Positions 13,396 to 54,823 of a stretch of 64,000 bases of DNA are shown in pieces; position 1 is the first letter of the stretch, and the number at the start of each line of letters is the position of its first letter. The position numbers and the translations under genes are program-made. This stretch comes from Gymnopus androsaceus JB14. Its lineage: Eukaryota > Basidiomycota > Agaricomycetes > Agaricales > Omphalotaceae. The stretch lies in the NCBI GenBank assembly GCA_009733575.1, contig ML769630.1:1-64000 (forward strand), in the 5' to 3' direction. The notes beneath the pieces were generated by a model. The model saw nothing but the letters and a program-made list of their open reading frames with translations, ran no database searches and was not told the origin of the DNA.

Positions 13396-14834
13396 TCAGT
13401 CATGGGGAAGCTTCATTCCTAGAGCAAACTGAATACTATCTGTGTTCTTTATATGGTCTCATTCCCCAATTGTCTGTTTCGCCTTCTCCATCTCCTGAAT
13501 TAAAGATGATCCCCCAAGTGTGTTGTTGGTATATGTTCCCATCATTGTCTCCCCTGATCCTGATGTCCTAACCCTAACACACTGGTCTGCCTGAGACCGC
13601 TTGAATCCCATCTCCTTGTACAATGCATTGAGAGTCCTCCACCCATTTCTTCCAGCCTGCATCATCCCGTATATGGATTTCTGAATCCTCATTACTTTTC
13701 CAGTTCCCTGTCCCGGATATCCTTCAGGAGGCCAAGCATATAGCTCCTCTTTGAGATCGGTGTTTAGGTAAGCAGAGGAAAAGTTGATTTGCCAAATATG
13801 GTACCCAAGGACGACCCATAAGGCAATAAGGATGCAAAGGGATTTATAACACAGTACGGCTGCAAAGGTCACGTAAAAATTGTGTCCTTCTTCCTGGGTT
13901 CGACTGTCAATGACAAGACATGCTTTGTGTTCAATACTGGCTCCTTCTCCATTGAGTTTGTGAGCAAGAACCCATAGGGAGCGCAGAATCATTGCATTAG
14001 AAGGAGGGTCCTGTAGGGTCCAAATACATTGAATTCTTTCATCCACTGAATCTCCTTTTTGATCGCAGGTGACCAACGGTCAGGGTCCTCCATGGCTTTA
14101 GCGTAGATTTTTGGAACAGGAGGGACTCCCAGCGTGGTAAGTGCAGAATTCAATTCAAAAGATACTTCATCAAACCCCTGGATCAAGGTTGCCATGCTGG
14201 CTCAAGGCTGGGATGCATCAGGTGTAGGTGGAATAGTCTGGTGTCAAGCAGATCAGCGGAGAGGGATGCTTGGGTCAGGGATATATTTTGTTCAAGTACA
14301 ACAAGTTTGTTGTTTAGGAACCAGAGTCTGGTCAGGGGTTTGATCGGAAGACAGAGTTTGTGGATGATCAAGGATTTGATCAGAAGAAGATTTGATCATT
14401 GTGGCATCGGTGGCGCCAGGCGTGAAATCAACAATGTCATTGTCATCCATATCTTCCTCCCCTATGCCTGGTGACAATGTACAACTGAGGTGTCCTTCCT
14501 CAAAAACCACGTCTTGAGTTGAGATGATCTTTCCGGAAGGTAAGTAGAGCAAATATACCCCCCTCTCACCATATCCAACCATTCTACCCTCAATGGCACA
14601 ACTATCCAATTTCCCTGGGGTACCATCGATGATAGTTGCCCATCCACGCACTCCAAAAGGTCTCAGATGAGAGATGTCCTGACAAATACAGAGGAAGATT
14701 TCTGCTGGAATACAAAAGCCATTTCGAGACAAGGGCAAGAGGTTCTCCATGTATACAACATAAGCTGCTGCAATCGCCAATAAGAACAGGGCATCAGCAA
14801 AAACTGTTTTGGGCCCAGGAGGATCTAAGCTCAC
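13396..14834 (-). pseudogene. Copia pol: end of integrase and RT, catalytically dead
   Basis: Minus strand. 14790-14300 encodes the end of the integrase region (YVVYMENLLPLS, RPFGVRGWATI, RMVGYGERGVYLLYLPSGK, then an acidic linker with VVFEEGHLS). 14195-13989 encodes PKIYAKAMEDPDRWSPAIKK and EFNVFG, the start of Copia RT. 13960-13459 encodes RT proper: a YVTFAAVLCYKSL-like segment, WQINFSSAYLN, YAWPPEGYPGQG, SIYGMMQAGRNGW and MGTYTNNTLGG. Motif A (normally .D...A(F/Y)LN) reads INFSSAYLN and the YxDD-equivalent reads YTNN, so all catalytic Asp positions are Asn. The 5' side is cut by the fold-back element at 14792; protease and gag are not seen. Confidence 0.88.
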
Positions 14835-24816: not shown

Positions 24817-25157
24817 TGGATGACTTCCGGTAGGATTTTTGTAGTTATCACCGAGCTACAAAACTTTGATCAGATTTTGATGCAAAATTTGTAGACGGAA
24901 TCTGTAGACATGTGCATCCCGTAGCTTTTCTAGACTAGATATCAAATTTCATTTCCGATCATGGATATTCCTGCAACGCCAGCAGGAAGAAGACTTGAAC
25001 GATGAAGCACACCTGCAGCAGCTTGTCTGCTTGCTACTTTTTTCTTTGGCATAACCGAAAATGAACAGAACAAAGTACAGCATTGAAACCCTTCATGCAA
25101 TAGGCGGGAGCTACGCGGTTCATTTTTAAAATATTTTTTCAAATGTCAGCCAAACCA
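24817..25157 (+). repeat. Left inverted repeat of the kinase-carrying element
   Basis: Outer block 24817-24870 and inner block 25101-25150 both match the right arm (39881-40385) inverted. The middle is poorly conserved. It ends about 90 bp from the alpha-kinase stop codon. Confidence 0.65.
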
Positions 25158-25246
25158 GTTTGAGCGCTTGGTATGATCATACAATGTATACCTATTTTGA
25201 GCACAAAACTGGTGTATGTGAGTTGTGACACTAAATACTAGTATAA

Positions 25247-27650
25247 TTACGAGTCTTCTCCATTGTCCTGAAGGCCAGATAGTTCCATCAATTCGCAGAC
25301 CTCGTTACACTTGTGATCGTTCACAAAACCTTTCATCCCAGCCTCACCATGGTCGCCGCAGCCCGAGTTCCTGAAAAAAATTTAGAAGACATTCATGTAC
25401 TAGGTATCAGATGACTTACCCAGCTACAGTGTGCGTCATCGGTCAAACAATACAAGGAAGTCCTTCCCGTTCTCGGAGACTTGTGTTTCTATAACACCTT
25501 GTGAGCTCCGTAATGTTGGATGTTTGAGCTTTAATGTTACCCTGAAGGTCCGCCATGACAAGTTGACCATTGGTGTACCAATGTACATAATGGGCGAAGG
25601 CATGCACTGTATTGGAGGTTTCGCCTCTATTGCTGGATGGTACATGCACAACCGTCCCAGTAAATTTTGTGAACGAAGATTCTCTTTGACCAGCCATGTA
25701 ATTCCTTCCTTATCCTAGGTCAAATCATCCAATTCCGAAAAGTCCGAGTCATCAAGAAAAGAGACAATTCCAGAGGCAAGACTCGGACTGCAACCTGTTT
25801 CTTGAGCAAGGAACCCTGTAGCAAACTGAATATCTGTAGTATCAAACATACAGTGAGATGGAGTTACTTGTAAGCTCAAAATGCAAACTTACGGAGGTCC
25901 ATATCAGTTGCGCCGAGCATCTTGGCTCTAGCATAAAAGCTCTTCATAAAAACTGCACCCTGGGCAAGACGAGCAGCATCAGGATAAATCATGGATCTAT
26001 TCTGTTTAATTTTGTCGGCATCAGTGAGAGCACCACTATTAACACTTAGCGTGAATTTATTATAACGCTTCGCAACCAGCTGCTGGTTCCCCACTCGGAG
26101 CTATTAGAAATCTGAGTTAGTTTGTTACACTCAATGCTAACAATGCACGTACATCAACAGCAAGCTTCATACCTCCTTCAGCAAATGGCTTGTCGTCTAG
26201 CTGTGCTTTAATGTTAGGAGAATCGGCCTGCAAGTTAAGAAACTTGAATTGTAAGCTGCGTGTATCAACTTCACAGTCGAAGTGCTTGAATTTGACGTGA
26301 GTAGGCGAATAGATCTTGATTTGTGTCCCATAAGCATTAGGCATTGGCATATACTGGGACTGCAATGCCAACGATGCGGATCCTATGTCATAACAAGCTT
26401 AAGTACTCCAAGGTGATTTAATAAGGAAAAGTTGACTTACTTGATCCCCCTTTGGAATGTTTGCCACCTTGAATACTGGAAAGGGAAATTCCAGAAGTTG
26501 AGCAGGTACGCTTCCGGGTAACTGAAAGTTTAGATGTTTTGTTTTTGGAAGCAAACAAAAAATCATCATCAAGCTCAGTGCGGATCTTGTACTAAGGAGA
26601 ATTAGTCTCAGAAATATGGATGAATTTGTGTCGAGCTACGTACAGCTTGAAAATTGATTGCAAATTCTAAGTAGAACTTGCGTGTTTTGGCATTCTTGGA
26701 ACCATTGCCTTTGCTGAGATGAGCCGGGAGATTATGAATATAAAGTTCAAGATCGGCGGATGTTTTTGAGTGCATCATGTAGAAATTGTCAACTGTTGCA
26801 GCCTCAGTCCCTGCAATTAAGATGCAGCCCGTATGCCATCGAAATTTGTTCTCCTCTCTAGACAAATTCAGAATATACTTATGGACAAGCATTGGTGAGG
26901 AGTACACACGCTTTGATACGTTGCTGGTTGTTCTGGCCTGATCCGGTGAATTCAGCATTAAATTTACCCAAAATCAAAGCTTTCAATTCTGGATGAATGC
27001 ATTAAAATCATCTCTGCGCATTGAAACTCCATCCTTACCATTCATAAACGTTGACCCTTTGGGTTTTTCTGCCCCATTCCCAAATGTCTTGCTGAATTTA
27101 GCACTCTCTCCCAACAATATAGCCTGTAGTAAAAGTTATATCTCAGGACAGTATATGTAATTCCGAATTTGGTTTACTTACCTGCCAGAAGACCACATAC
27201 TCGTATTCTTGAGAGTGTATCATTGCTTTCATGATGCACGAATGTGTTTGTATTAATCCTACTCGGTTCAGCAGCAGGCGGGACACTGGCATGCAATCGA
27301 TCTCGGGTCTTTTGGGCAAGGTCAGCATATGACTGTGGAATGTTGGCCGTGTCTGGCAAAGCATCAGTAATATGATTCCATTTGACTTGAAATGAATACC
27401 AACTTGGACCTCTTCGCATTTGTGGCTGCATTTGGCCTCCTGAAAAACACTTACTACAATCTTGTGAACCACATGTTTGGAGCTCTGGGGAGTCACATTC
27501 CGGCATGCCATGCCTTCGGGTGACTCCACAGACAAGACACTGTAGTTGGCGCTGCTGAAAGGTCAGGTAAAGGCTGTAGTGATAACTTTGGGTACCCACA
27601 GAGATGTCCTTATATTGTTGAGAATCTTGACTAAGCGAGTTGAGTTTCAT
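25247..27650 (-). pseudogene. Fungal alpha-type protein kinase, frame-broken
   Basis: Alpha-kinases are atypical Ser/Thr kinases. Minus strand, N to C: a Cys cluster (LQCLVCGVTRRHG, CGSQDCSKC) near 27560-27460; a middle region with FWQ|AILLGES, WHTGCILIAG and QGGKHSKGGSS; then the kinase core: PFAEGGMKLA (glycine-rich loop), LVAKRYNKF (nucleotide-binding Lys), DEGITWLVKE-like segment, FTKFTGT, HAFAHYVHWYTNGQLVMADLQG (split here: HAFAHYVHW at about 25600, ADLQG catalytic), LVLFD, then GCGDHGEAGMKGFVND and HKCNEVC (Zn-binding His/Cys). GT..AG introns are visible (e.g. 26115-26165, 26400-26455, 27124-27181). Breaks: TAG at 25715-25717, a frame change near 25690, a one-base loss near 25440 (expected D-P-M-T-H) and a frame change near 27230. 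All key residues remain, so it died recently or some breaks are mis-read introns. No eukaryotic-type kinase motifs. Confidence 0.8.
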
Positions 27651-27842
27651 GCATTTTGCACAATTACCTTGAGATTGCTGAAGAGGAAATAGTTATTCGC
27701 AGCCCGGACAAGCTTGGGCCATTGGAAGCTTTTGAGATGAAGCACAAGAATAAAATCTCACTCTTATATGAGAACTGGTTGACATGACTCACGGTTCATT
27801 TCACCCATTCTCAATGGCCAGAGTTGCCAGACTGAGACGAAA

Positions 27843-28211
27843 CTATTTTTTATGAAAAAAAAGACTCAGAGGCAGTGGGTTGCATCGCGTCGGACTGCTT
27901 TTTTTGAAAACAAAAGACTCGGTCACCTCGGACTACTTTTTTTTTTGAAAACGAAAGACTCAGAGGTAGTGAGTTGTGTCACGTTGAACCAATTCTTTGC
28001 AAACAAAAGACTCGGAGGCAATGAGTCGTGTCGCGTTGGACCAATTCATTGCGAACAAAAGACTCGGAGGCGGTGAGTCGTGTCGCGTTGGAGTACTTTT
28101 TTTTGCAAACGAAAGACTTGGAGGCAGTGAATCGCATTGCGTAGGACCACTTTTTTTGCAAACAAAAGACTTGAAGGCAGTGAATCACGTCTGAGTTGCA
28201 TTGTGTTAGAC
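27843..28211. repeat. Minisatellite, about 54-60-bp unit
   Basis: Six to seven units of 'aaaagactcggaggcagtga' + 'gtcgtgtcgcgttggac.a' + a T-rich spacer. The array continues at 30500-30575, on the far side of the MULE-like element, so it was one array before that insertion. It lies upstream of the alpha-kinase, in the intergenic space it shares with the transposase. Confidence 0.85.
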
Positions 28212-28616
28212 ACTTCAGTCACCTACTAAAAGATACCTACTTAGGCTTAACTTTTGCGTTCCAAGTTGGACCTAAGAAGGGGTAAATGCCTGGCATATTC
28301 CACCATGGTGGTATTGCCATGGTAATACCATCATGGTAGTACCATGGCCATGATGGTATTACCATGGTACTACCATGATGGTATTACCGTGGTGATATTG
28401 CCATGGTGGTATTACCATGGTACTACCATGATGGTATTACCATGATATTATCATGGTGGTACTACCGTAATATCATGAGTGGTAATACCATGGGTGGTAA
28501 TACCATGGGTGGTATTACCATGGGTAGTATTACCATGGGTAGTATTACCATGGGTGGTATTACCATGAGTGGTATTCTTCAATGGTATATTGATTTGTCT
28601 ATTGTTACCCATCTAA

Positions 28617-28655
28617 TCTTTAACCCTAACCCCCAATCCTAACCCCTAAGTCCTA
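28617..28655. repeat. CCCTAA telomere-like repeats inside the MULE-like element
   Basis: 'taaccctaacccccaatcct' and 'aacccctaag' degenerate units. A mirrored TTAGGG-type copy lies at about 30285-30325. They are part of the transposon subterminal region, not a telomere. Confidence 0.65.
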
Positions 28656-29343
28656 ATTTATAAATCTCAATTCATGACAATTTTTTTTTGGTAAAAGAAG
28701 CACCCGTAAGTGCTGATAGATGTAGTTACATGTATATAAGTAATGTCATACTTTCCTAGTACTGGTATTAGGACCAGTACATATAGTACTAAGTCACACT
28801 AGTAGCTCTTAGTTGGTATTGTTAGCAGGTTATTCATGAAGTGGTAGAAGTGGGGTAATTGCAGATAGAGAGTACACTCCCTAGAGCCTAGTATTTATAC
28901 CTTCTACCTAGTACATGGGAAACATACATGAATGACTCAACCTGACTAGTAGTGACTACTACTGACTGCACTTGACTGGTATATATTAAGTCAGTCACAC
29001 TGACTGTGGTAGTGTAAGTATGAGTCAATAATGACTCAAGTTTGTCATAGTAATGCACTGGTGAACACTGTTTTACTTACAGATTGTAACCAGGGTATTG
29101 CACTGCATTTCCAAGATATTCTCCAACAGGTATCACCAATAATTTCTACTAGTAACTAATCTAATGGTTATAATAGTACCAATAAGTTGCACTAGTAACT
29201 AATCTAATATTGTACTAGTATAACAACTTATTAGGTTTACTAAGCATTACATTAGTTACTGGTGTAACAGCTTATAAGTACTACTAACCATTAGTTACTA
29301 GTTCAACGATTTATTAGTACTAGTATAACAATCAGATTAACTA

Positions 29344-29968
29344 CTACATTCGAAGACCTCATATGGAATACATTCGGGGTAGGCCCAAACCATATTCCAT
29401 ATGGCGGATATTCCATACTATATAAAGTCAGTTTTTACCGGTTATTTATGTCTAAAAATGTGTGTTTCAAGCATTCTGAGTGTATTACAAGTAATTGAAT
29501 CTATTTATGACCTATTTGCAACCAAAAAAGTCCATGATCCAGGTCAAAGACCTCAAGCCAGTTGCTCAATGTAAGGTCTACCTTACATTGATGCAATGAC
29601 TTTAGCAGTTGTACGCGGTTGATCAGTATGTTTTTGTGGCTAAATTGGTTGGTTGTTTGACATTTTGGTGAAACATCTGAGTTTTTGGGATGGTTTATTT
29701 AGGCATGATTGAGTGAATAAATGGAAAACAGAAATTATGCTGCAAATCAAGCAACTTCAACTCCAATACACATGAAAATACCAAAACTCTAAAATTTTTG
29801 TTTTAATGTAAGAGAATTTATGAATAACTTGGTCACTGCGATATGGAATATCCCCCAAAATTTTGCCAATATCATATTCCATATTCCGGAGTACGGATCC
29901 ATGGAATATCCCCGCCTCCCAAGTTGGGGAATGAAATATTGCATTCCATATGAGGTATTTGACTGTAG
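29344..29968. mobile_element. Nested TIR element in the MULE-like element
   Basis: CTACA..TCGAAGACCTCATATGGAAT at the left mirrors CTACAGTCAAATACCTCATA at the right (read inverted, ending 29968). About 625 bp, interior unlike the surrounding minisatellite, with further 'attccatat' motifs at 29375-29420 and 29850-29900. No ORF; no clear target duplication. Confidence 0.65.
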
Positions 29969-30499
29969 TGCAATAACTTATTAGTACTAAGCATTAGATT
30001 AGCTACTAGTACGATAAATTATTAGTACTCACTGTTACATTAGTTACTAGTGTACCAACTTATTAGTACTAAGTAGTATAACCATTAGGTTAGTTACTAG
30101 TACAAATTATTGATGATACCAGCTAAGCGCTACTAGTGTGACTTAGTACTATATGTACTGGTCCTAATACCAGTACTAGTAAAGTATGACATTACTTATA
30201 TACATGTAACTACATCTATCAGCACTGACGGGTGCTTATTTTACCAAAAAAAAAATGTCAGGAATTGAGATCTATAAATTAGGACTTAGGGGTTAGGATT
30301 AGGGGTTCGGGTTAAAGGTTAGATGGGTAACAATAGACAAATCAATATACCATGTTTGAAGAATAACACTCATGGTAATACCACCCATGGTATTAGGTAT
30401 TACCATGGTGGAATATGCCAGGCATTTACCCCTACTTAGGTCCAACTTGGAAGGCAAAAGTTAAGCCTAAGTAGGTATCTTTTAGTAGGTGACTGAAGT

Positions 30500-30575
30500 G
30501 TGTTAGACTACTTTTTTGAAAATGAAAGACTTGGAGGCAGTGAGTCCAAAGTCGCATTGCGTTGGAATACTTGTG
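30500..30575. repeat. Continuation of the 54-60-bp minisatellite
   Basis: Resumes with 'gtgttagactac', 'gaaagacttggaggcagtga' and 'gcattgcgttgga' directly after the 9-bp duplication of the MULE-like element. Confidence 0.8.
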
Positions 30576-30925
30576 TTGCACCATGCATATCTGCAGCTTG
30601 GTTTCATTTTTATCTTTTTTTTTTTTTTTTTTTGAATCCCGTTTATTCGCCGAAGTGCGTAACCATATGGTAGCGAAATCCTATCTAGTTATGTATTCGA
30701 GTCTCGTGGATATATGGGTACTGTGCATGTGTGTAATTCTGCCAACAACGAAAGGCACTCAGTGGAGGCCCCGGTAGGATAAATCCCACCTAACCGCAAG
30801 GGCTGGATTATATGTGAATAGGTAATATATGTAAGGTAAGGGGAGAGGGAGGGGAGAGAGGGGGAAGGGATGAGTGGAGAGCAGTAGAGTCCGTGATGCT
30901 GCATTCAGGCGCGAGTCGCCTTCTG

Positions 30926-33900
30926 TTATTCCTCTCCCCACTGTGGTAGTTCGCCAACTATATGATAGAATCTGCGCGTGTCGTTTATGAATTGGAAGAG
31001 CTCCTTGAGCGTTTCTGCTGTTGTGAGGAGCGCCAATAAGGTGCAGCTTCTGCGGCCTATCGCTCTCCTCATTCTGTCTCTGCGGGTACGATGGGCTGGG
31101 CATTCCATTAGATAGTGATAGACCATTTCCGGGTGGCGTTTGCAACATGGACATAGTGGTGAGTCGACTCGATTGATGTTGTATAGGTGCTTTTGCAGGG
31201 GTGCATGGCCAATTCGTAATTGTGTTAGGATCGAGAGGAGCTTTCTTGGTAGGCCCCGTGTCAGCTTCAAGTACGCTCGGCTGACTGCAGTAGCTGGAGA
31301 GGGATCGATCTTCTTGAATTTCGCATACCGCGGGGACTTTTTCCACATTCTGTTATGCTGTTCCTCGAGGGACTTTCTGAACGTGCGGATGATGGCGGTC
31401 TGGCTCCTGGGAAGAGATTTGTGGAGTTGTTTGGGGAGTTTTGCTTTTGGGCTAGACCTGGACATGGCTGCCCTTTTCGCTTCCTCATCAGCCCTTTTAT
31501 TCCCTGCTACCCCAACGTGTCCCGGGACCCAGTGAATGTGTACTGCAATGTCGGGGTGGGTTAGCCTGAGTTGTTGTAGTAGCTCATGGAAGTAATTGAG
31601 GAGGTAGTGGGCCGGGCCCGTGGCCGAGGTGTCGGATGCTGTGATGGCTGACGAGTTGTCGATCCATATAGAGATTTTCCGAATGGATCCCTTCTGCAGG
31701 CATGCTTGGTGTAAGGCTAGGAGGAGGCCAACACATTCGCCCTCGTAGACTTCGTGATCATCGTCCGTTCCCAGCCTGAAGCGTAAAACTCCTTTCTCCC
31801 TGCCATTCCTATATATGACCGAGGCTGCGCCTACTCCTCCTTTATAGCCAGACCCATCCGCGAAGCATCTAATGTCAGAGTCATCCTCCTCAAGCAGTTT
31901 CAGTGCCTCCTCTTTATTTTCCGCTATGACTATGACTAGGTCTGGGTCCCAGCTTGATTCGTATCGAACCGCCTTCTTTTTTTCTATGCGTTTCGGCTTT
32001 AGCTGGTAGGCGCACATTAAGTTGTGGAGCGGTGAGAGGTGTCGAGTCCGACGTGTATTCCGTGCTGCGGCTTCGACTCTGGGAGCAATTGGGTGGGTGT
32101 GAGGAAGGGTGGATAGGCGTACTGCTGCTCTGTGACGGTGTCTTTCAATCTCTAGTTCCATGGGCAGTAGGGTTGCATGTATATCGAGAATGTCAGTGGC
32201 TGATGTGGTCATCGCGCCCGAGATTAGGATGGCTGCCTGTCGTTGGATAGATGTGAGTCGGCGTGATACCTGGGAGTGTTTTGGTGCTTCTCCTTTTCTC
32301 CGCTTTTGTTGGGGGGTCAGGACTATATCCGCTGCGTATAGCATATGCGGGATGGCCTTTGACTTGAACAGTTGGCGAATGTGGTGACCTGCCATACCAT
32401 CTTTCATTCGTGCAAGATGTCTGAATTGGACGATCCATCCCTGTCCCCGTTTGATCATGAGAGCGTGCTGTTCCTTCCAACGTAAGGCCTTGTCCATGAT
32501 AGTCCCTAGGAAACGCGCGCTGTCTTCCGAGTGGACTAGCGTGTCTCCTATCGTAATCCCTGGACCATTTACCAGTACCGTTTTTTTCCCCCCTGCTTTC
32601 GACTTTTCTAATACCACTGATTTTGTTGTCCCATCCGTCTGCGTTCCCAGTGTTAGTTGCGTTAGTCCTTTAACCGCTTCCCTTTTCCTCGTGAAATCAA
32701 CCAGTTTGAATTTGTCGACACCAAATGAGCAGTTGTGCTTTTTGGCCCAGTCTAGGACGCCGCCATCTCTTTCCATCATCTCTTCTAGACCTTCGTGAAT
32801 CTCCGCAACATTGTCCCTGCCCGCATTGCCGCAATATCATCCATAAAGCCGAAGCCCTCTTCGTTTTCTCTCCTCTTGAATGTGTTTAAGGCTCCAGCCG
32901 AGTACAGGATGTAGCCAATCCCTGCCGCTGGGTCACCCTGATCCTCACCGCCTATGACTTCCATTGTCTCCGACACGTAGTCGTCAAAGACCATTCGCGT
33001 GGTGCGGTTGGCGTATCTCCGTTCTAGCCATGTCACTAGTTCATTGGGGACTCCCAGTAGCCTCAGTTCATGATATAGCATTGTGAGGTCGACGCTAGGA
33101 AAGGCGCCTTTCACATACATATAGAGTACTGAGACGATGTCGCTTTGTCTCCAGAGTTCCTTGATACGATCGACCATTATCTGTGGTGTTACGTCCTGGG
33201 TGTGCTCCGAACTGTCGGGCTGGGATTAGGCCAAGGATTTCTGCATTGCGGGTGACTTCATCAGCGACATAGCCATTCAACCCTCTGGCATGTCCGTGTG
33301 ACAGCACAAGAGGGCGATGTGAGCCTGGGATTCGATAGTCGGACTTCCCTGGTTTACGTGCAATAATGGTTTCGTTTGTTGCCCAGTCGTCGGGGTATAT
33401 GGTTTGGGTAAAAGTCACTCGGTAGATTGGTGCAAGGTGCGGAGTGAGTATGGTATTGTTGGCTTTATAGAGGTCATTGGGGAAGGTGCCGGGTCGCGTA
33501 GCTTTTCCGCTTTTCATTTTCCGAAATACATTGTATATTTGTCGATTTGTTGGTGGTGCGAAGGACCAGGCAGGAGCTGGGTAGACCGTGTTGATCGGGA
33601 CATTGGGCTTGGGCGGAGGTGGTGGGAAAAAGGCCTGCTTGAAGGCTTCGACTTTACCAGCATTGTCACAAACTGTCCTTTCTCCTTCCTCATCTCTCAC
33701 CAGCAGTTCTGGGATTCGTGTCCTTCCACCATCCAACGGTCCACTTTCTGCCATCCTGCCTATGTCCCAGATCGAACTGGAGTTTGCATTTGTTAGGTAT
33801 TCGAGCCATTTCTCGGATTTTGCTTTTTCGATCTCTGTCGACATGGTCTGTCGCATTCGATGATTTTGTTTGTGGACTGGGTGCTCGGGCTGTGCTCTGC

Positions 33901-34948
33901 GGTGATACGAGTGCCCTGCCAGTCGATCTCGCACCTTCTTCATCTTTTTGAGGTCGTCTGTCCACCATCGGCGCTGCATGGGGCTAGGTTTGACCATCGG
34001 GACCTCTTCTTCGATCACAGATTCTACTGCTTCGTCAAGCTCCTTGAGCCTTTTCCGGAACTCCTCCCGACTCGTTATTTCCGTTGGCCTCGCTAGTGAG
34101 TTGAGTTTCGTTTTCAGTTTCTCTTGGAACGACTCCCAATCCGTTTTCTTCCAGTTTCTCCTTGGTCTGGGGTCAACTACTTCAATGCCCATGTCTATTA
34201 TAGTCTCTATTGGGAAGTGGTCGGTTTTAACCGGTTGTCACGTTGGAGCTGTGTCGCATTTGATTATGCGTTCAAGCAGGGTTTTTGAGCAGAATACGTT
34301 GTCAACCCTGGTGTAGTTGCCTGTGGAGAACGACTTTAGAGTGGGGATGTTTTCCGGGAGGGCCATGAAGAGATGGTGTTGGGCTAGCATTGTGAGGAGT
34401 TGCTGCGCAGCATCGAGGTTCCGTGTAGTGAAGAGGTGGTGATTCCTGGGCTCGTCCCACGTTGGGTGGTGACGATTAAAGTCGCCAAGCCACACTGTGT
34501 GTAGCGGGTGTTTAGGTATGTCCCTTGCCCCATTGGAGTTAGTCCAGCGGAGAATACTTTCTAACGCATCGTCATTTCCCCCATTGTTATAGATGTTGAA
34601 TATACGGATTGTCCTGAAGTCTCCACAGATTTGGATGGCTGTTACATCGAAGCTGTCGACCGGGATTTGTGTCCAGCTATTGGTTGGAAGGCGGATGTTT
34701 ACTAGTAGAAGGGAACGAGTTGTTTTTCCTTCATCGGCGGGTGGGTGATTATTGGGGTATATTGTAATGTAGTGGGAGAGGGCTCGAGATTTGTTCAAGT
34801 AGTCAATGTATGGCTCCTGGATGGCCAATACGTGGGACCTGCCCTTGTCACCTTCGACGAAGTCGTGCATGCTACTGGCAGATTTATTAGTGTTGATTTG
34901 TGTTATTGTAAGTCTGTCGCTTTCTATTATTTCTGGTTGTGCACTCAT
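30926..34948 (-). pseudogene. LINE ORF2: APE endonuclease, RT, RNase H, with lesions
   Basis: Starts at ATG 34948. Endonuclease (34948-34190): QINTNKS, AIQEPYID (catalytic Glu), WLGDFNRHHPTWDE, TRVDNVF, then after TGA (34238-34240) VKTDHFPI (catalytic Asp-His). RT (about 33700-32815): fingers KPGKSDYR, ARGLNGYVADEV, motif A reads YMYVKGAFPSVD where Asp is expected at the second Y, GEDQGDP, and intact FMDD. Frame changes occur near 33170 and 32812. RNase H (about 31910-31450): CFADGSGYKGG, YEGECVGL, WIDNSSAI, HWVPGHVG..NKRADEEA keep the D-E-D-D set. A C-terminal CPCCKRHPEMVYHYLMEC (CX2CX8HX4C) follows. The element cannot make active ORF2 as written. Confidence 0.92.
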
Positions 34949-36720
34949 TAAAAGTGTCTAGGGCGATGACCTTCCTCATAGCTATCCCTGCCAGTGTCCC
35001 TTCGTTCGTAGTAGGTGGGTGTATGACTTCTGCGGGGAGGTGGAGAGCGAGTTCTATATCGCGAGCGAGACCTGGGCTGGTAGTAGGAGTGGATGGTAGG
35101 CTGGCGAGCGTTGGATGGTGCTGGCGGGGGCTTGTCATTGCTAGCATTGCCCCTGGGTTGCGAGCCAGGTGGGAATCCACTGGCCTCATCAGGCAGTCCA
35201 CCTGCGAGTCTCCCTTTCCCTCTTCCGCCTTTCACTATCTTCCACCCTTCCTGATAGTCCTTCTGGACTTCAACTCGCCAATCCCTGTTATGATCGACAT
35301 CTTCTGCATCGTTATCCCTAACCCAGGTGTCCGGGTGATCAGTGACGAAGTATTTGTATCCTGCTTCCGGGTTTCGCTGTACACGTTCCCTGAGTTTGCG
35401 AGCTAGGGTCGGGCAAGACCTGTCTGACGCTGTATGGCCCGGCTTCTTGCAGACGGCGCAGTAGAAGTTGTCACTCGAGGCAGTACATTCGCTGGTTCGG
35501 TGAGTGCCATCACATCTGCCACAGATATCCTTTTCTGAGGGGCATTCTTTCGCGATATGATAATGTTGTTGGCATTTCATGCATCTCGGGGGGTCCCTGA
35601 GGTCGCGGTGTCCTTCAACCCACTTTCCTCTGATCGACATGCCTCTTTGGATGGCTTGGTTGGCCGCCTCTCTTGTGTTGAACACAATGATGACATGGGC
35701 TGCCTTCTGATGTGGTTGTCGTTTCTCCTCCCTCTTTGCCCACACGATTGATGCAATGGATTTGGATGGGAGTTGGCTTTTGTCCTCAACTCTTGGGAAT
35801 GTTTCCGGGCCTATGGATGTGCTGACTGGGATGAAGCACATGAATACGCTGTGGAGATTGGGCCGGGCTGTGACTGCCGCGCCCCACCAACCGCAAAATC
35901 GGGTAAGTCTGTCCCCTTGTCTCATCCAGTTCATCTCATCGACTGAGCGCATGATGCAGGCTACACCCTTGCCCCGAATCTTCTGTACGGCTGCGATCTG
36001 GAATGTGCCTTCCATTTTGCCTTCTACTTCGAGAAGCTTGTCTAGCGCGTGGGTGGCTTTTGTGAGGAGCACGGGTTCGGTTTCGTCCATGTTAGTGTCA
36101 CCATCTGTGCGGACGATAAACCTTCTGTCTGTCATGTGGCCTGCAAGGATGGCTGCATTGTGTTTGGGGCGCTGGAGTTGGTGTGCAATGTCAGTTGCAC
36201 CAGATCCAGCCATTTGTGCGTAGGATGGTCTGGGTGGGAGCTCTCCTGGTTCAGGGGGAGGGGCACTGAATGGGTCTATCGTGATAGGAGGGGGTTTAAT
36301 GGAGTCAATTTTGTCTTCCAAGTGGGCGAACTTTTCTGCCAAAGTTTCTAGCCTATTGGTAGTGTTTTTGAGCTCCTCCGATGCGTTTCCTGTCCATTCG
36401 CAAGCGGTATCCACTTTCTCCGCCACTTTATCCACTATCTCTTGGATGAGTACGTCAGTCAATGGTTGTTGGCCTAGGGTCCAGCCTTTCCACTTCATTA
36501 ACTTTGCCATCATCTGTACTGCTTCCCATGCTCTCTTTTTATCTGGTGTATTGGCTGTCACTAGTGGTATTTGTTTGTTCGCTAGCTTTAAGAGTTGATT
36601 CGGAAAGGTGTCGAAGTAGTCATCCCCCGGATTCATCATTTTTAGTTGTATCAGTCTTTTTTCCCACTCATTTTTCTCCTGTTCGGTTACTGGTTTGGTG
36701 GTAGACCGTGTACCGGCCAT
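34948..36720 (-). CDS. LINE ORF1 protein, gag-like with three CCHC knuckles
   Basis: An uninterrupted 590-codon frame. Residues about 95-140 look coiled-coil (EIVDKVAEKV, LETLAEKFAHLEDKI). A proline-rich stretch PPPITIDPFSAPPPEPGELP follows near 145-165, then a globular part with RRM-like segments (VIIVFNTREAANQAI near 350). Three zinc knuckles near 380-450: CMKCQQHYHIAKEC, CGRCDGTHRTSEC and CAVCKKPGHTASDRSC. The C-terminus is basic and Arg/Ser-rich (RSRSRYRTRSPPPRRS). It should bind LINE RNA and chaperone reverse transcription. Its stop codon overlaps the ORF2 start as TAATG (34946-34950), which suggests coupled re-initiation. ATG 36720 lies 158 bp from the element start. Confidence 0.9.
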   Translation of the reverse strand: MAGTRSTTKPVTEQEKNEWEKRLIQLKMMNPGDDYFDTFPNQLLKLANKQIPLVTANTPDKKRAWEAVQMMAKLMKWKGWTLGQQPLTDVLIQEIVDKVAEKVDTACEWTGNASEELKNTTNRLETLAEKFAHLEDKIDSIKPPPITIDPFSAPPPEPGELPPRPSYAQMAGSGATDIAHQLQRPKHNAAILAGHMTDRRFIVRTDGDTNMDETEPVLLTKATHALDKLLEVEGKMEGTFQIAAVQKIRGKGVACIMRSVDEMNWMRQGDRLTRFCGWWGAAVTARPNLHSVFMCFIPVSTSIGPETFPRVEDKSQLPSKSIASIVWAKREEKRQPHQKAAHVIIVFNTREAANQAIQRGMSIRGKWVEGHRDLRDPPRCMKCQQHYHIAKECPSEKDICGRCDGTHRTSECTASSDNFYCAVCKKPGHTASDRSCPTLARKLRERVQRNPEAGYKYFVTDHPDTWVRDNDAEDVDHNRDWRVEVQKDYQEGWKIVKGGRGKGRLAGGLPDEASGFPPGSQPRGNASNDKPPPAPSNARQPTIHSYYQPRSRSRYRTRSPPPRRSHTPTYYERRDTGRDSYEEGHRPRHF

Positions 36721-37859
36721 TTTTGTTGTATTGTTGATTTACGATATGAGTAAGAGTAGTTTTTACTTCGATAATCTGAATACTATAGCCTGTAAGGCTT
36801 CTTTCACGCCCGACGATCTTTTTAAGAACCGTGGGAACAATCAAAGATGGTGGCAGTACTAGATCAAAAGGAGTCGTCTCATTTTTATCTTTGCAGTCAG
36901 CAATGCACTTCAAGGGGTTGTACAATGAAACTCTGTTATTTCCAGTATTCGAAATCTCAGTCTTGTGTTGGTAATCTGGATTTTTTTAAAGACTACAACA
37001 GCAGTACAGCCGCTAGCATCCATAAAGGTTTAGAAGCAAACATGGTATCTTGATTAATTCACTGCTAAATATGCCCAATCCTCCAGGAATTAACGGTTAT
37101 GGCACCATGGCCAAGGATAGTGAGTTCATATTCCATTCGTTACGTAGAATTATTTTGGACTTATTATTATTGTCAGAACCTGCCAATGATGTATTGAAAG
37201 CTAGTTTAATCAAGTATCAAGATGAACGGCAAACTCAAAATCAGAAATTGCAGTCCTTAGCAAAAGACCACGGGTATGTCATTGGGTATGCGTTGATGAT
37301 TGAAGTTCTTCTCAGTATACTGATGTATCTTGTATCGCCAAGGACGACAAAGTTGAATCAAGAAGAGAACTGGCTTGGAATATCAAGCAAGCATTACTTT
37401 AAACCTTCCGCTGAACAGGTTCGGCAAGCAGTCAGCGATGAGGTAGAAAAAGGTCTTGCCTAAGGGAATGGTCCCGACTTCATTGGATCAGCTGAAACAC
37501 AACTATAACTTGCATGTTGGTTGGTGATTCATTGCTACAAATTTTGAAATTATGCATTGAAGCTAAAATCATATTAGAGATCTCGTTACAAAGATTATGA
37601 AGGATTACTTTCCCCAAGATTTCCTGAAGTGCTTCCCGGGAAAGAAAAATATTCATCAGAACCGGACAACTCTTAAATTGATAGGTCCATTCTGGGAGCT
37701 CAATGGCGATGGTCATGAAAAGTTAGCACCGCAAGCATTTCAGATGGGCGGTGTAGGATTTTCCATTTATTCATATAAAGAGAAGTGGTCGGACGATCTT
37801 CCTTGTGGCATGACACTAGCACCAGAGTGTCAGGCCTTGGCTCATTTCTCATCCGCTAT

Positions 37860-39060
37860 CCACCCTCTGATGTTTCCCACGCTTCCTGGCCGTCCGCGGA
37901 TACTTCCCACGCTTCCTGACCGTCCGCGGATACTTCCTGCACTCATTACCTACATTGCGGGCGCTTTCCATGCTTATTTACCATTTATCCTGCCTGCCGG
38001 GCACTTTCTACATGTGATTACCACTTATCCTGCCTCCCGGGTGCCTCCCGCACTTGATAACCATCCATCAGGCCCTCCTGACGACTTACACAGCCACCCT
38101 ACAGTATATAAGTAGACACCCCGAGTCCATGCACCCTAGTCTGTTATTACCATTGTTACTGAATCGATCCCGTTTTGCTCTGTCTCTGTCTCTGTCTCTC
38201 TATTTCTATCTGTTCTAACCAGCTGTGCCTTCCGAGCTCCGTTCGAAGGCCCACTGTCATCTGCATTAACTGCGAGGCTCTGTCCGTAGATAACAAATCT
38301 ATGTCCAGAGCTCACTGCCTTCTATCTCTGTTTACAACTTTACAACCAAAGCTCCCCGGGAGCTTCCTATTTGGGTTTTGCTACCTCTAGAACCTCTGGG
38401 ACTGTCCGCTTTCACTCAATTCCGCCCGCTCCCACGCTATTTCCACCCGCTCTCACGCTAATCCAACCGCTCTCACGCTAATCCAACCGCTCTCACACTA
38501 TTCCCATCCGCTTTCACCCTATTCCATCCACTCCCACGCTGTTTCCGTCCGCTTTTGCACTATTCCGTCCGCTCCCACGCTATTTCCGCCCGCTTTCACC
38601 CTATTCCACCCGCTCTCACGCTATTTCCATCCGCATTTGCTGTATTCCATCCACACTATCCATATTTGGACTTATTACACCTTTTTGGACCACCCCTTCA
38701 CCCATATTCCATCCACTCCCACTCATTTCTGGTCGTCGGACCACAATACCACCCGCTTCCTCCTGATTACGTCAGCGGGTGGCCCGTACACTGTTCCTTG
38801 CACCTCTGAGGCTTGTACTGTTCCGTACAACACTCATACTACTGTCCAGACCCACCTTACGGCACGGTTACCCGGGTGGTCGCATTTGGTCTCCACCTAC
38901 ATCTAGGTGCAAGACATTTGGGATACGTTGGTCCGAGATCCGTTTCGTGCACCGGGTCTCACACAGAGAGCCATACCGCAGTTATAGGCGGACACATTTT
39001 TCTTGACTTTGTTGAATCACGTGGATGTAAGTCAAGCTCCACACTGTTACATTGAGTCTT
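37860..39060 (+). mobile_element. Insertion in the transposase gene, probable solo LTR
   Basis: It interrupts the transposase between the W..K..D segment and TTDKG. It carries a TATA-like 'acagtatataagtagacacc' (38102-38121), a following CT-rich 'tctgtctctgtctctgtctc' tract, and a later tandem repeat, which resembles the promoter and leader of a fungal LTR. Exact ends and target duplication could not be fixed, so the LTR assignment is an inference. Confidence 0.45.
38405..38660 (+). repeat. Minisatellite, about 24-bp unit
   Basis: About ten units of 'tccgctttcaccctattcca' or 'cccgctcccacgctatttcc' type, pyrimidine-rich on this strand, inside the insertion at 37860-39060. Confidence 0.8.
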
Positions 39061-39879
39061 CACTAATTTTTGGGGTGTTCTCGGCTTATGTATTCCTGTT
39101 CAGTTGACTACAGACAAAGGTCCTGAGATTGGCTATCAACATGCATTCATGTTTTCCCTATGGTGTGGATCTGTTGTCTGAAGTCTAACAAGTCCTCACA
39201 TGTTACTTATTTTCTAGCGATACTTATGCTCCTGACATTGATACAGTACAATTTCCACCACATATCATTCTAAAAAGCACTAGCAATACACCGATTGAAG
39301 GTGTATGGTGTCAATGGCTTCAGAAGAAAGGTATTAGCTTGAAGGAATACATTATGCGCAGTAAGACTCAATACATTTTTGATGTGAACAATCCAAAGCA
39401 TGCGTAAGTCTCTGCCTGTTTTAAATTTGGTGCTTCCAATTACTTTATTTAGGTTGCTCTTCTATTGGATATTCGTTCCGCTTATTCAAGCACAACTTGA
39501 CGAGTTTGCCAACCTAACAAACATATGCCATCTGGACATGTCCCAGCTTATGCTCTCCAGCACCCAGAGGAGTTCGGTGGTGTAGATTGTCACATTGCAG
39601 TCCCAAAGGAAGCCGTCGATCAACTGCGCAAGTTTCAAGAGGAGAATAGTAATAAAACACGTGCCGAGTGTTTTCAGTGGTTCACGGATGATTTTGGTGC
39701 ATTGGCAAAGGAGGTACATGAATCAATCGGAAAACCAGTTCTAACATTAGACTCTGCCTGGCAAGTTTTCATACAAATGTCTCCTATGCTAGCTAATTAG
39801 AGCATATACATACATAACATGCTGACTGGCATGACCCAATGATTCTTATTAGCACTCCTTGGCAGCAATCAGTTCGGTT

Positions 39880-40385
39880 CAGCTGACATTTGAAAAAATA
39901 TTTTAAAAATGAACCGCATAGCTCCCGCCTACCGCACCCTTCACATTTGTATCTGCACTGACATCAGCTCATGCCATTCCCTCGTCTCGACTCACCTTGG
40001 CAATGACTTTGGGCAGCTCAGGATGACTGTTCATTTATAACTACAATGGGGTTTGATGTCAGGACATTCCGCTAGTCTTTTAAGTCTTTCAAAAATTGTA
40101 GTTGGGACAATGCAGAAAGTTGTTCAGACCGTCGCGCTCCGTATACACCAAAAACAGCCCAAAAAGAGAATGAAACAGATCTCATCTTTGATGGATGTGA
40201 AATTCCGTTGATTTCTAGTGCAAAAACGGTCTGTAGGAGGGTCCGGACCCTTCTACAGATGTAAAGTTTCTAACCAGCTCTGAATTTGCAATTTTGTTGA
40301 TGGGAGCGTTGGCATTGCGGCTGATGCGGATTTTTCGTCATTTGTAGCTCGGATTTAGCTACAGAATGCTATGGGAAGTCATCCA
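39880..40385 (-). repeat. Right inverted repeat of the kinase-carrying element
   Basis: Inner block 39881-39931 and outer block 40335-40385 match the left arm in inverted orientation; the interior (39940-40330) is less conserved and longer than on the left. The transposase stop lies at 39800. Confidence 0.65.
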
Positions 40386-40396
40386 GTACTAGCTTA

Positions 40397-40555
40397 GAGC
40401 CTGTTTGGCAAAATATGATGTTGAACTTTGACCACTAAATCTTGCCCATAAATAGCAAATGACTAAAAATTGAATGGTGGAGCAATTAGTCATTTGCTAT
40501 ATATAGGCAAGATTTAGCAGTCAAAGTTCAACATTATCAGTTGCTGAACAGGCTC
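40397..40555. mobile_element. Tourist-like (PIF/Harbinger) MITE, TTA target
   Basis: A 159-bp near-palindrome that begins GAGCCTGTTTGGCAA and, read from the other end, GAGCCTGTTCAGCAA. Arms of about 70 bp include 'atgttgaactttgac' and 'ctaaatcttgcc'. TTA flanks both sides (40394-40396 and 40556-40558). A G(G/A)GCCTGTTTGG start with a TTA duplication is typical of PIF/Harbinger MITEs. It sits 12 bp outside the kinase-carrying element. Confidence 0.8.
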
Positions 40556-40826
40556 TTATGTACTAATATCTCGGACTAGTACTTATATTAGTACTAATGT
40601 ACTAACTACCCTAAATTACCAAATAATGAACTATCAAATCAGAGCATAGTTCTACATACAGAGGTGACAGTCATATACATGTCACAGTATGAGCTTAGGT
40701 GATAGACTGAGCTGACTCCGAAGGCCTTGATATGATGATGAAATAGATACCTTTTGTGATTATTTTGTGTGATTGATGCATGTCACAATTGAATGTAATG
40801 TGACAGAGCTAAATATAACTATGACA

Positions 40827-50446: not shown

Positions 50447-51540
50447 TTGAACGGAATCACAGCAGAGCAATTCGCTGTTGCGATAAAACCTGCGGAGAAG
50501 GTCGATCACTCAAAATGGGTTGTAGCTGAGGACACAAAAGAGTGGAACAAAGCGCACCCTTATGTAGAGGATCACCGTAAAGACTTCGCTAAAGAACAAG
50601 ACGAGCTTATACCTTGGATAGTAGATTGGCTGAAAAATAAAGGCCAAATCACTCTACCAAGCAGCTCAGTAAGGGATTACTCCCGACTTGAAAAGAAAGC
50701 TATTAAGTTCTTCCTTGATGATGAAGAACACTTGTACCGACAGAATCCAGAGTGGAAGGACAACACTTGTTGTTTGTACCTAAAACCCGCCGAATGTTCA
50801 TGATGCATAGTGCTCACAATCACCTTGGACACAAGGGCGTGTTTGCAACTAAAGAATTGATCAGGAAGCGTTTCTGGTGGCTAGATCTTGATGGAGATGT
50901 TAACTGGTTTGTCAAAACTTGCTTAGCTTGCCAACATTGCAGGTTAGAGTGGATAAAGATACCACCCACTTTAACCCACACTCCTTCATTGTTTCAAAAG
51001 ATTCATGTAGACACTTTCCACTTGTTGACACCGAGTAACGGGTGCAAATACATTGTACACGGTCGGTGCACGCTTTCTTCTTGGTCCGAGGCCAAGAGCT
51101 CTGAAAGTAGAGAATGCACGAACTTTGGGAGAATGGTTTTTCAACAATATTATTCGTTGATGGGGTGTCCCGAGGAAGTCGTTACTGATAACGCTCCTCA
51201 GATGAAGAACATGTTGGAATGGCTTGAGAAGAAATATGGAATCCGAGGTGTGCGCATCTCGCCATATAACTCTCAGGGAAATGGAAAGATCGAATGCGCA
51301 CACTTTGACATTAGACAATCCTTGGTCAAGGCTACTGCGAACAACTTATCCAAATGGTTCTGGTTCTTAAAACCAGTATTGTTTGCTGATAGAGCAACGA
51401 CACGTAGAGGTTTTGGCTGTTCACTTTATTTTATGGTAACAGGCGCGGAACCTCTGCTACCTCTCGATATCATGGAATCTACCTGGTTAGTGAAAATACC
51501 AGAAAGAATCTTGACGGATGAGGAACTCGTGGGTTATTGA
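50447..51540 (+). pseudogene. Gypsy integrase, core open and catalytic triad kept
   Basis: 50447-50803 and 50752-51540 overlap. Zinc-binding H2C2: HNHLGHKG..KELIRKRFWW..CLACQHC. Core: KIHVDTFHLLT (D), EVVTDNAPQMK (D), GNGKIECAHFDIRQSLVKA (E), FADRATTRRGFGCS. 262 codons are uninterrupted. It is followed by TGA codons (51538 and 51562) where Arg is likely, in LVGY*ATALAKY*VHIRD, consistent with CGA to TGA changes. It would insert element cDNA into the genome. Confidence 0.85.
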
Positions 51541-53011: not shown

Positions 53012-54433
53012 CTAACCGCGGACGACTGTGGAATTGAAATGTGATGCGATCTCAGTGATCAGAACCTCGTCTCCCGGAGAAAGCTGCTGGTACATGGGTC
53101 TTACTGACAACAGTGGCAGACAGGACTGTGAACCCAAGAGAGAAGTCAACTTCTTGATGAGCAGTGGAGGATGATGAACTTTGAAGGGAGGACATGTTTG
53201 CAGAAGTGCAAAGGCAGCTTCCCCCCCAAAAAATATTCTGCCATGTTGATATAAGCAAGGAAATTGCCTAGAATCAAAAATATCCACAACCTTTTGAGGG
53301 TCAGACCAGTTGATATACACTTCACGAGCAAATTTCCATTCCTGAAAATTTGGCCACGATTCTTTGTTAGCAGACAAGGTCTTGGCCATGCGCTGGGAGA
53401 ACTCGTCAGGCTGGAAGTTGGATGGCTGAACAGGATGAAGCTTGGGATGATGAAGAACAGGTTTGACTGAAGGACGGACCTCGTCAAGCAAAGCAGGGCT
53501 CGTGAAGGGATAGGAGCTGCGAGAATTGTAGTACTTCCAAGTTGCAGGGTCATAAAAGACCTCGACGTGATCTGGACAATGGATTGTTGGATAGAACTGA
53601 TGAGTAACCAACAAAGGACTGTTTGGGCCCGGCAAATCCACAACCAGTTCTAGGGTCTGTGCAGTGGGTTGGCTCGGATAACTGACCAGCACATTGCAAA
53701 CCCAAGAATAGTCGAGGAAAGACTCCATCAACTCGCCAGAATGACAGTTGCAACGGTCAGACTGAGGAAAATTATTCTCGAGACTAGCACAAAGTTCCTG
53801 AATTTGTTGAAGGTGTTGTGGAAATGGAAAGTCTGTATACCCGGCATCGCAAAGGTCACCGTAGGAAAGGAATTGGCCTGTGACTTCATGAAAGCTGCTA
53901 GTCCTGTACCAAAGACACTGGACAGAAGCTTCTTCACAGAAGGGACAGAATTCGTGTGAAGGAATCCAATCTGAAGGATAGGATAAGTTGATTGCAGGAG
54001 CTGGAGAGAAGGGAAGTTCTCGATCCAAGAAGCAATTGTGCGAAGCACGATTGAGGGATGAGATGTACCACTTCGAAAGCCACTGGATGGTGAAGGAAAA
54101 GTTTCCGGTAAAGGCAAGAAACTGGGTAAAGGAGCCTCGGTAGCCATAAAATACAAAAAATTGCTCATAAGCAATAACTTTGTATGGTACCTCGGCTCCC
54201 CCAGCAGCAAAGTATCCTATGGTCTCAGGAATTTCACAATCCCAAGGACCAACCATCTGAGGAGTAACGTCCTCGATCAAAGGAGCATTCCCGGTCTGGA
54301 CAATTGCCTCGATAAGGGAATGAAAAATGTTCTCACCTGATGTCTTGGGCCTACGAAAGTTGGACGCATTGTCATTAAGACGAGTACGTTTGCCCTTCCG
54401 AGCCTCAACTCCAGCTGTACTCTCATGAAACAT
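53012..54433 (-). CDS. Uninterrupted 473-codon antisense ORF, unknown
   Basis: It reads from ATG 54433 with no stop for 1422 nt, opposite to the gypsy pol direction, in a part of the element with no plus-strand coding. The start is basic and NLS-like (ARKGKRTRL, NFRRPKTSGENI). The body has IPETIGYFAAGGAEVPYKVI, EQFFVFYGYRGSFTQFLAFT, a Cys-rich segment CPFCEEASVQCLWY, then CNCHSGELMESFLDYSWV, a Pro-rich stretch and FARRVYINW-like FAREVYINWSDPQKVVDIF near residue 380. It ends EIASHFNSTVVRG. There is no transmembrane or signal segment. The long open frame inside decayed DNA argues that it is a real gene, captured or element-encoded. Function unknown. Confidence 0.65.
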   Translation of the reverse strand: MFHESTAGVEARKGKRTRLNDNASNFRRPKTSGENIFHSLIEAIVQTGNAPLIEDVTPQMVGPWDCEIPETIGYFAAGGAEVPYKVIAYEQFFVFYGYRGSFTQFLAFTGNFSFTIQWLSKWYISSLNRASHNCFLDRELPFSPAPAINLSYPSDWIPSHEFCPFCEEASVQCLWYRTSSFHEVTGQFLSYGDLCDAGYTDFPFPQHLQQIQELCASLENNFPQSDRCNCHSGELMESFLDYSWVCNVLVSYPSQPTAQTLELVVDLPGPNSPLLVTHQFYPTIHCPDHVEVFYDPATWKYYNSRSSYPFTSPALLDEVRPSVKPVLHHPKLHPVQPSNFQPDEFSQRMAKTLSANKESWPNFQEWKFAREVYINWSDPQKVVDIFDSRQFPCLYQHGRIFFGGEAAFALLQTCPPFKVHHPPLLIKKLTSLLGSQSCLPLLSVRPMYQQLSPGDEVLITEIASHFNSTVVRG

Positions 54434-54823
54434 AATGAAACCCTTCAGTCAAATCGAGCTGATGAGGAGATACATGTGTGCATACATTGGGGCAAGATGA
54501 AGAAGGTGAAGGAGATTCCTACGAAACAAATTAGAAGGCAAAATGAAGAAGTAGACCAGTTGACTTACACGCCAGTGATGCGAATTAGGAGCTGTCGCGA
54601 CATGGGCACGAGGCCTGGTCTAGCGAGGAAATTAGCTTTGAATATGAAGAATGTGATGAACACATATGGGTGTTGCACTTGTGCTGGCAACTTTTGGGGG
54701 AGCCGGGACTTCAACTACTCCTTCATCCTCTCGGATAGACCGCCAAGAGGAACCATCCTTTTTAGAAAACTGAGGCCTGGTCAACAAGATACAAGGAAGA
54801 GTAATAGTGCAGTAGAACTTTGC

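Follow-up and report, generated by a model that had tools for sequence, protein, structure and literature searches.

The window analysed here, i.e., the whole stretch of 64,000 nucleotides at positions 1 to 64,000 of contig ML769630.1 of Gymnopus androsaceus JB14 (GCA_009733575.1), contains between positions 24,817 and 40,385 a block in which an alpha-kinase gene and an integrase-like DDE transposase gene lie between inverted repeats. Judged from the sequence, this block most likely goes back to a cut-and-paste DNA transposon with two genes, of the IS3EU/GingerRoot type, of which it is a decayed copy; the kinase would help the element. In this genome, within which all element and gene searches were made, the trees of the two genes from 11 elements almost coincide, purifying selection acted on the kinase during the splitting of the older element lineages, and most of the alpha-kinase loci found are transposon-borne. 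Copies and loci are designated below by the C-numbers of the assembly contigs, the copy in the window being C248.

The preliminary description of the window had reported two nearly identical inverted copies of about 50 bp and, outside them, a weaker pair. The inner copies are real and somewhat longer, namely a pair of terminal inverted repeats (TIRs) of 61 bp, 92% complementary in a self-comparison of the window (Table 1), directly outside both of which stands the 7-bp sequence CCCTTCA. The target duplication and the empty site that were then sought are both present: among five copies of the surrounding repeat that were fetched and aligned, two (C8 and C14) cross the junction uninterrupted with one CCCTTCA, while C32 and C98 are without the junction stretch and the C548 copy does not span it. 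By these two empty sites, the inner repeats are shown to bound a mobile element whose insertion duplicated 7 bp. Used as a query against the genome, the TIR gave 10 matches including the window's two (E 2e-24 at its own site and 1e-17 at the right-hand copy), and a plasmid search with it gave no match. The outer pair, TGGATGACTTCC (24817 to 40385), is real too but does not belong to the element: it corresponds to the ends of a repeat family of about 740 bp, older than the transposon insertion, for which 57 matching pieces, the window's own included, were listed when the joined outer flanks were compared with the genome. As true transposon ends, the outer repeat was thus rejected, being a separate family with the empty sites at the inner ends.

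Elsewhere in the genome, both TIRs together with recognisable parts of both genes were found in C281 (6.0 kb), C56 (6.3 kb), C42 (6.2 kb), C254 (2.7 kb, transposase incomplete), C288 (7.1 kb), and C22 (5.2 kb), which makes, with the window copy, seven TIR-bounded two-gene elements of 2.7-7.1 kb where not enlarged by later insertions. Over 10 end pairs, the target site duplication (TSD) measures 7 bp in six (C248, C56, C42, C254, C288, and the gene-free C84), 8 bp in C281 and 6 bp in C22, where it was read by eye and its two copies differ in one base; there is no TSD in C21 or in C48, a short copy with both TIRs. All seven two-gene elements carry a TSD of 6-8 bp. The termini are either TG (C248, C42, C288, C84, C48, and C21) or TA (C281, C56, C254, and C22), beginning with TGCGG, TGACG, TAACG, or TAGCG, and in C248, C281, C56, and C42 there is a TTCAT motif at positions 24-28 counted from the terminus; a single base of it differs at one of the two ends in C42, and likewise in C56. 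As such, the proposal that kinase and transposase moved together, and that inverted pairs would repeatedly flank the two, is supported within this genome by seven elements with TIRs and TSDs and by the two empty sites. A rearranged remnant was also seen on a short contig (C932:5495-6807), with transposase pieces, one TIR, and a stretch of 20 kinase residues that are the same as in the window copy.

The association of the two genes extends beyond the copies with intact ends. Alpha-kinase loci detected by any search number 18 and transposase loci of the same clade number 15, both counts being lower bounds since the search scores only the best candidates. A transposase adjoins 13 of the 18 kinase loci (C248, C655, C699, C281, C56, C22, C254, C42, C110, C47, C411, and two loci in C288), and a kinase stands beside 12 of the 15 transposase loci, i.e., the same ones save C655; the other three are C48, C932, and C548, the last being a search match only. 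Non-co-occurrence, which would have told against a joint element, was therefore not what was found. For these counts, (i) the kinase pieces of C437 (two, 10 kb apart) and C387 (two, 2.6 kb apart) were taken as one locus each, (ii) the 20-residue piece in C932 was not counted as a kinase locus, (iii) six loci of the transposase search that are also rva_4 loci (C129, C901, C193, C342, and two in C9) were left out beforehand, and (iv) the C110 stretch includes 1,939 positions read as N. By simple arithmetic, about 0.07 chance neighbours within 10 kb would be expected, and the related integrase core domain family rva_4 (PF24764), with 81 matches on 45 contigs, has no contig in common with the kinase loci.

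Kinase and transposase have diverged in step. Pairwise distances of the two proteins over 11 elements are correlated with a Mantel r of 0.93, a value reached by none of 20,000 permutations, and the same test on the nine elements without the convergent pair gives r = 0.946 (P = 5e-5). Maximum-likelihood trees of the two genes for the 11 elements have seven of eight splits in common, which none of 5,000 shuffles attained; the single conflicting split has supports of 41 and 40, three of the common splits have kinase support below 90 (86, 66, and 65), and some rows are short, e.g., 69 kinase columns for C47 and 94 for the second C288 locus. The ratio of non-synonymous to synonymous divergence (dN/dS), obtained by simple counts on stop-free frame pieces with no model fits, is for the kinase 0.11 in C288/C42, 0.18 in C281/C56, and 0.15 in C22/C254, the latter with dS near saturation, and for the transposase 0.27 in C288/C42 and 0.11 in C281/C56, the C22/C254 transposase pair being unused for saturated dS.

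The alpha-kinase family also comprises eEF2K, TRPM7, and the myosin heavy chain kinases. While the kinases of the elements differ from one another at 60-80% of sites, their catalytic residues persist: the ATP-binding Lys, the Glu in WL(L/V)E, the zinc His, and the Asp of DxQ, roles which we assign by presumed analogy with TRPM7-type kinases, are invariant in seven of seven aligned kinases. Among the linked loci, 12 gave a match, and of these all 12 have HxCxxxC, 10 GxGxxG, and 8 SGxGDHG; the zinc His is lost in the C173 and C437 kinases. Since a profile of the kinase alignment matched no solved structure at E 0.01, catalytic residues were judged by motif. Compared with the family PF02816 at large, the kinase is alike in its catalytic residues and in a score over the Pfam cut-off, and unlike in being carried by a transposon and in the signature SGxGDHG. 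All three DDE residues of the transposase are present in 8 of the 12 elements checked (C248, C42, C288, C56, C22, C110, C47, and the second C288 locus), at least one not being found in the pieces available for C254, C281, C699, and C411. With PF24764, a family which we take to cover IS3EU, two members of the clade were scanned, C411 scoring over the cut-off (29.5 vs. 26 bits) and C56 below it (15.9 bits); the genome search with this family did not list the transposase loci of the clade.

Many cut-and-paste transposons get by with no protein of their own other than a transposase. Here, linkage, congruent trees, and low kinase dN/dS argue that the kinase is a long-standing component rather than a recent cargo; as such, the earlier designation of the kinase as an accessory gene was right in that it is element-encoded, but "accessory" is probably too weak a word for what behaves as a core component. 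In the proposed mechanism, the transposase would bind the TIRs, then cut and join DNA with a 7-bp stagger, while the kinase made by the element would phosphorylate either the transposase or a host factor of chromatin or silencing; this phosphorylation may license transposition or expression of the element, and copies lacking a working kinase would have left fewer descendants. More tentatively, and as a serious possibility rather than a likelihood, an entire lineage of DNA transposons could have had the kinase as its obligate second protein since ancient times, with the kinase, and not just the transposase, deciding on movement or on escape from silencing, in which case the alpha-kinases expanded in this host group would largely be this transposon. 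That selection maintains this signalling enzyme, and that the enzyme has descended in parallel with the transposase across deep divergences, points to an element-encoded control of transposition by phosphorylation, and provides a testable explanation for the numerous alpha-kinases of some fungal genomes. If most alpha-kinases are transposon genes, the lists of expanded kinase families, and the effector candidates taken from them, need re-reading.

Several observations weigh against a transposon with an integral kinase. Both genes are broken in the window copy, and within the closest pair, C248/C655, the kinase dN/dS is 0.61 (302 codons), as in decay; three further kinase pairs, namely C110/C288, C110/C42, and the second C288 locus/C47, have saturated dS and are uninformative. 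Two of the 13 links are weak: at C655 the evidence is 20-22 residues of transposase at the edge of a contig, and at C411 it is a kinase match of 69 residues (E 1.3e-4). Gene order varies over the 13 pairs, i.e., nine divergent, two tandem (C22 and C699), and two convergent (C47 and the second C288 locus), with transposase and kinase in opposite orientation at 11 of them. No transposase was found in the sequence around five of the 18 kinase loci (C198, C66, C387, C437, and C173); of these, C437 and C173 have a TIR beside the kinase, the C387 kinase pieces match the C56 kinase at 93% and 79% identity, and in the 7.5 kb covered around each of C66 and C198, whose kinases are divergent, nothing matched the transposase model. 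Gene-free elements of about 1 kb each with the same ends exist at C84:97465-98484 and C21:175166-176199, and the target of the kinase in the mechanism above is a guess.

On such grounds, the kinase might be a passive cargo, i.e., a gene of the host that was picked up by accident and can decay freely while it travels with the element, as proposed for the TET genes passing between transposon superfamilies. The interrupted kinase of the window copy, the ratio seen in C248 vs. C655 and the differing orientation of sister elements (tandem in C22 vs. divergent in C254) would all fit a cargo, whereas the almost complete co-phylogeny, the dN/dS of 0.11-0.18 in three older pairs, and the catalytic residues kept between such divergent kinases do not; following the phylogeny of the transposase and staying constrained across paralogous elements at unrelated sites are not what one expects of a cargo, and this explanation is therefore considered unlikely. 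Equally improbable is that the kinase is kept for the benefit of the host, the elements merely multiplying a useful gene family. The alpha-kinase family is mentioned as expanded in rusts in the available part of one source (PMC4469406), and another (PMC4150398), likewise in its available part, names an alpha-kinase of stem rust as subject to diversifying selection, but most kinase loci found here adjoin a transposase, several kinase copies are interrupted or fragmentary, and the divergent, transposase-free alpha-kinases at C66:43428-43625 and C198:31846-32145 could themselves be the true host kinases. Finally, that kinase and transposase are neighbours by chance or nested insertion, the 50-bp repeats being a miniature inverted-repeat transposable element (MITE), is excluded for practical purposes: in its favour are the many nested insertions of the region and the two short same-end elements with no detectable genes, while seven TIR-bounded gene pairs, all with a TSD of 6-8 bp, and the empty sites stand against it. 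The idea of a gene-free MITE holds only insofar as C84 and C21 exist, gene-bearing elements being found beside them; with nearly the same ends, these short elements were possibly moved by a transposase of the window type.

The two-gene transposon is not without described relatives. The statement that no element of this kind had been described is outdated, the available part of Kojima (2025; Biology 14:1741, PMC12730594) establishing the pair of transposase and alpha-kinase in IS3EU elements: all TET-bearing IS3EU families carry a TET gene between a transposase and an alpha-kinase in opposite orientation, and those from Pucciniales have 6-bp TSDs, TAYGG..CCRTA termini, and TIRs of more than 30 bp. 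The elements described here are like these in having a transposase and an alpha-kinase in opposite orientation within a TIR element with TIRs over 30 bp. They differ in three respects, namely (i) the TET/JBP gene, which lies between the two genes there and was detected at none of the kinase loci here in a genome search with PF12851, the sensitivity of which for a rust-type TET is uncertain, (ii) the TSD, 6 bp there and mostly 7 bp here, and (iii) the termini, TAYGG..CCRTA there and TGCGG, TGACG, TAACG, or TAGCG here. Elsewhere, at C425:9685-9906 and C361:35380-35622, Tet_JBP gave two weak matches that stay under the curated cut-off. In the available part of a second source (PMC10045372), IS3EU is given TA..TA ends and a TSD of usually 6 bp, and GingerRoot TA..TA or TG..CA ends and 6 bp, with no mention of a kinase. 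IS3EU and GingerRoot have an integrase-like DDD/E transposase related to IS3/IS481 types, to which the transposase here may correspond. The TA or TG starts of the TIRs fit the superfamily, whereas the TSD, at 7 bp in six of 10 end pairs, does not; a TSD of mostly 7 bp vs. "usually" 6 argues for a distinct subgroup. Because no TET was detected and both TSDs and termini differ, the elements are classed as a variant without TET and with a 7-bp TSD, close to IS3EU/GingerRoot and outside the TET-bearing group, IS3EU being compared by description only. What is new is the co-evolution of kinase and transposase, the selection on the kinase, neither of which is treated in the available part of PMC12730594, and the transposon-borne nature of most alpha-kinase loci found; no earlier report of a stable kinase-transposase partnership was met in the literature searched, with Repbase Reports and most subscription papers outside that search.

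In the window copy itself (Table 1), the minus-strand alpha-kinase of the preliminary description is borne out by a PF02816 match over its cut-off at 25533-25682 in the profile search of the genome, by its exons and by the HxCxxxC motif, and the divergent plus-strand transposase by its catalytic residues, i.e., D at DGHEKL, D at TDKGPE, and E at PIEGVW. The distance to the inner repeat is 90 bp from the end of the kinase frame and 75 bp from that of the transposase frame, close to the 80-90 bp first given. Pfam scans of ten single exons of the two genes returned no alpha-kinase or transposase family since the exons are short and the genes interrupted, and the assignment instead comes from the PF02816 genome search and the pieces of relatives. 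Measured against C655, the kinase frame is broken at two places, one near 25.68-25.72 kb and the other near 25.44 kb.

Beyond the preliminary description, the analysis adds the 7-bp TSD, the interruption of both genes, and three nested insertions, of which the fold-back element has long imperfect inverted arms full of short repeats. The element measures 14,841 bp, a length of about 15 kb due to the later insertion of the long interspersed nuclear element (LINE), the fold-back element, and the solo long terminal repeat (LTR). Its sister copy C655, at a contig edge, is 94% identical over 3.2 kb and is without the LINE and the fold-back element, the first pieces of its kinase and transposase lying about 0.8 kb apart.

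Table 1. Features of the transposon copy and its surroundings (positions in the window).
Feature	Position	Strand	Details
Left part of surrounding repeat	24817..25095	.	Separate family of about 740 bp hosting the transposon
Left target site duplication	25089..25095	.	CCCTTCA; single copy in empty sites C8 and C14
Left terminal inverted repeat	25096..25156	+	Starts TGCAATAGG
Alpha-kinase gene, several exons, decayed (5' end not determined)	25247..27692	-	PF02816 match, exons, motif
Nested fold-back element	28212..30499	.	9-bp duplication GTGTTAGAC at 28203-28211 and 30500-30508
Nested LINE-type retrotransposon	30618..36878	-	Endonuclease, RNase H; 14-bp duplication TCATTTTTATCTTT at 30604 and 36879
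Integrase-like DDE transposase gene (5' end not determined)	37077..39800	+	Exons split by introns and a solo LTR
Solo-LTR-like insertion inside transposase	37828..38963	.	TG..CA ends; 5-bp duplication CAGAG
Right terminal inverted repeat	39876..39936	-	
Right target site duplication	39937..39943	.	CCCTTCA
Right part of surrounding repeat	39944..40385	.	

Around the element, a hairpin repeat at 40387-40565, with two 80-nt arms that are 83% complementary, lies directly beside the outer repeat, and another copy of the 740-bp repeat (C548:16771-17429) is situated about 0.5 kb from the clade transposase at C548:15831-16214. Further away in the window, a Copia-type reverse transcriptase is encoded at 13459-14079 (minus strand), an integrase zinc-binding domain at 50725-51540 (plus strand), and a 478-aa open frame with no Pfam match at 53012-54448 (minus strand).

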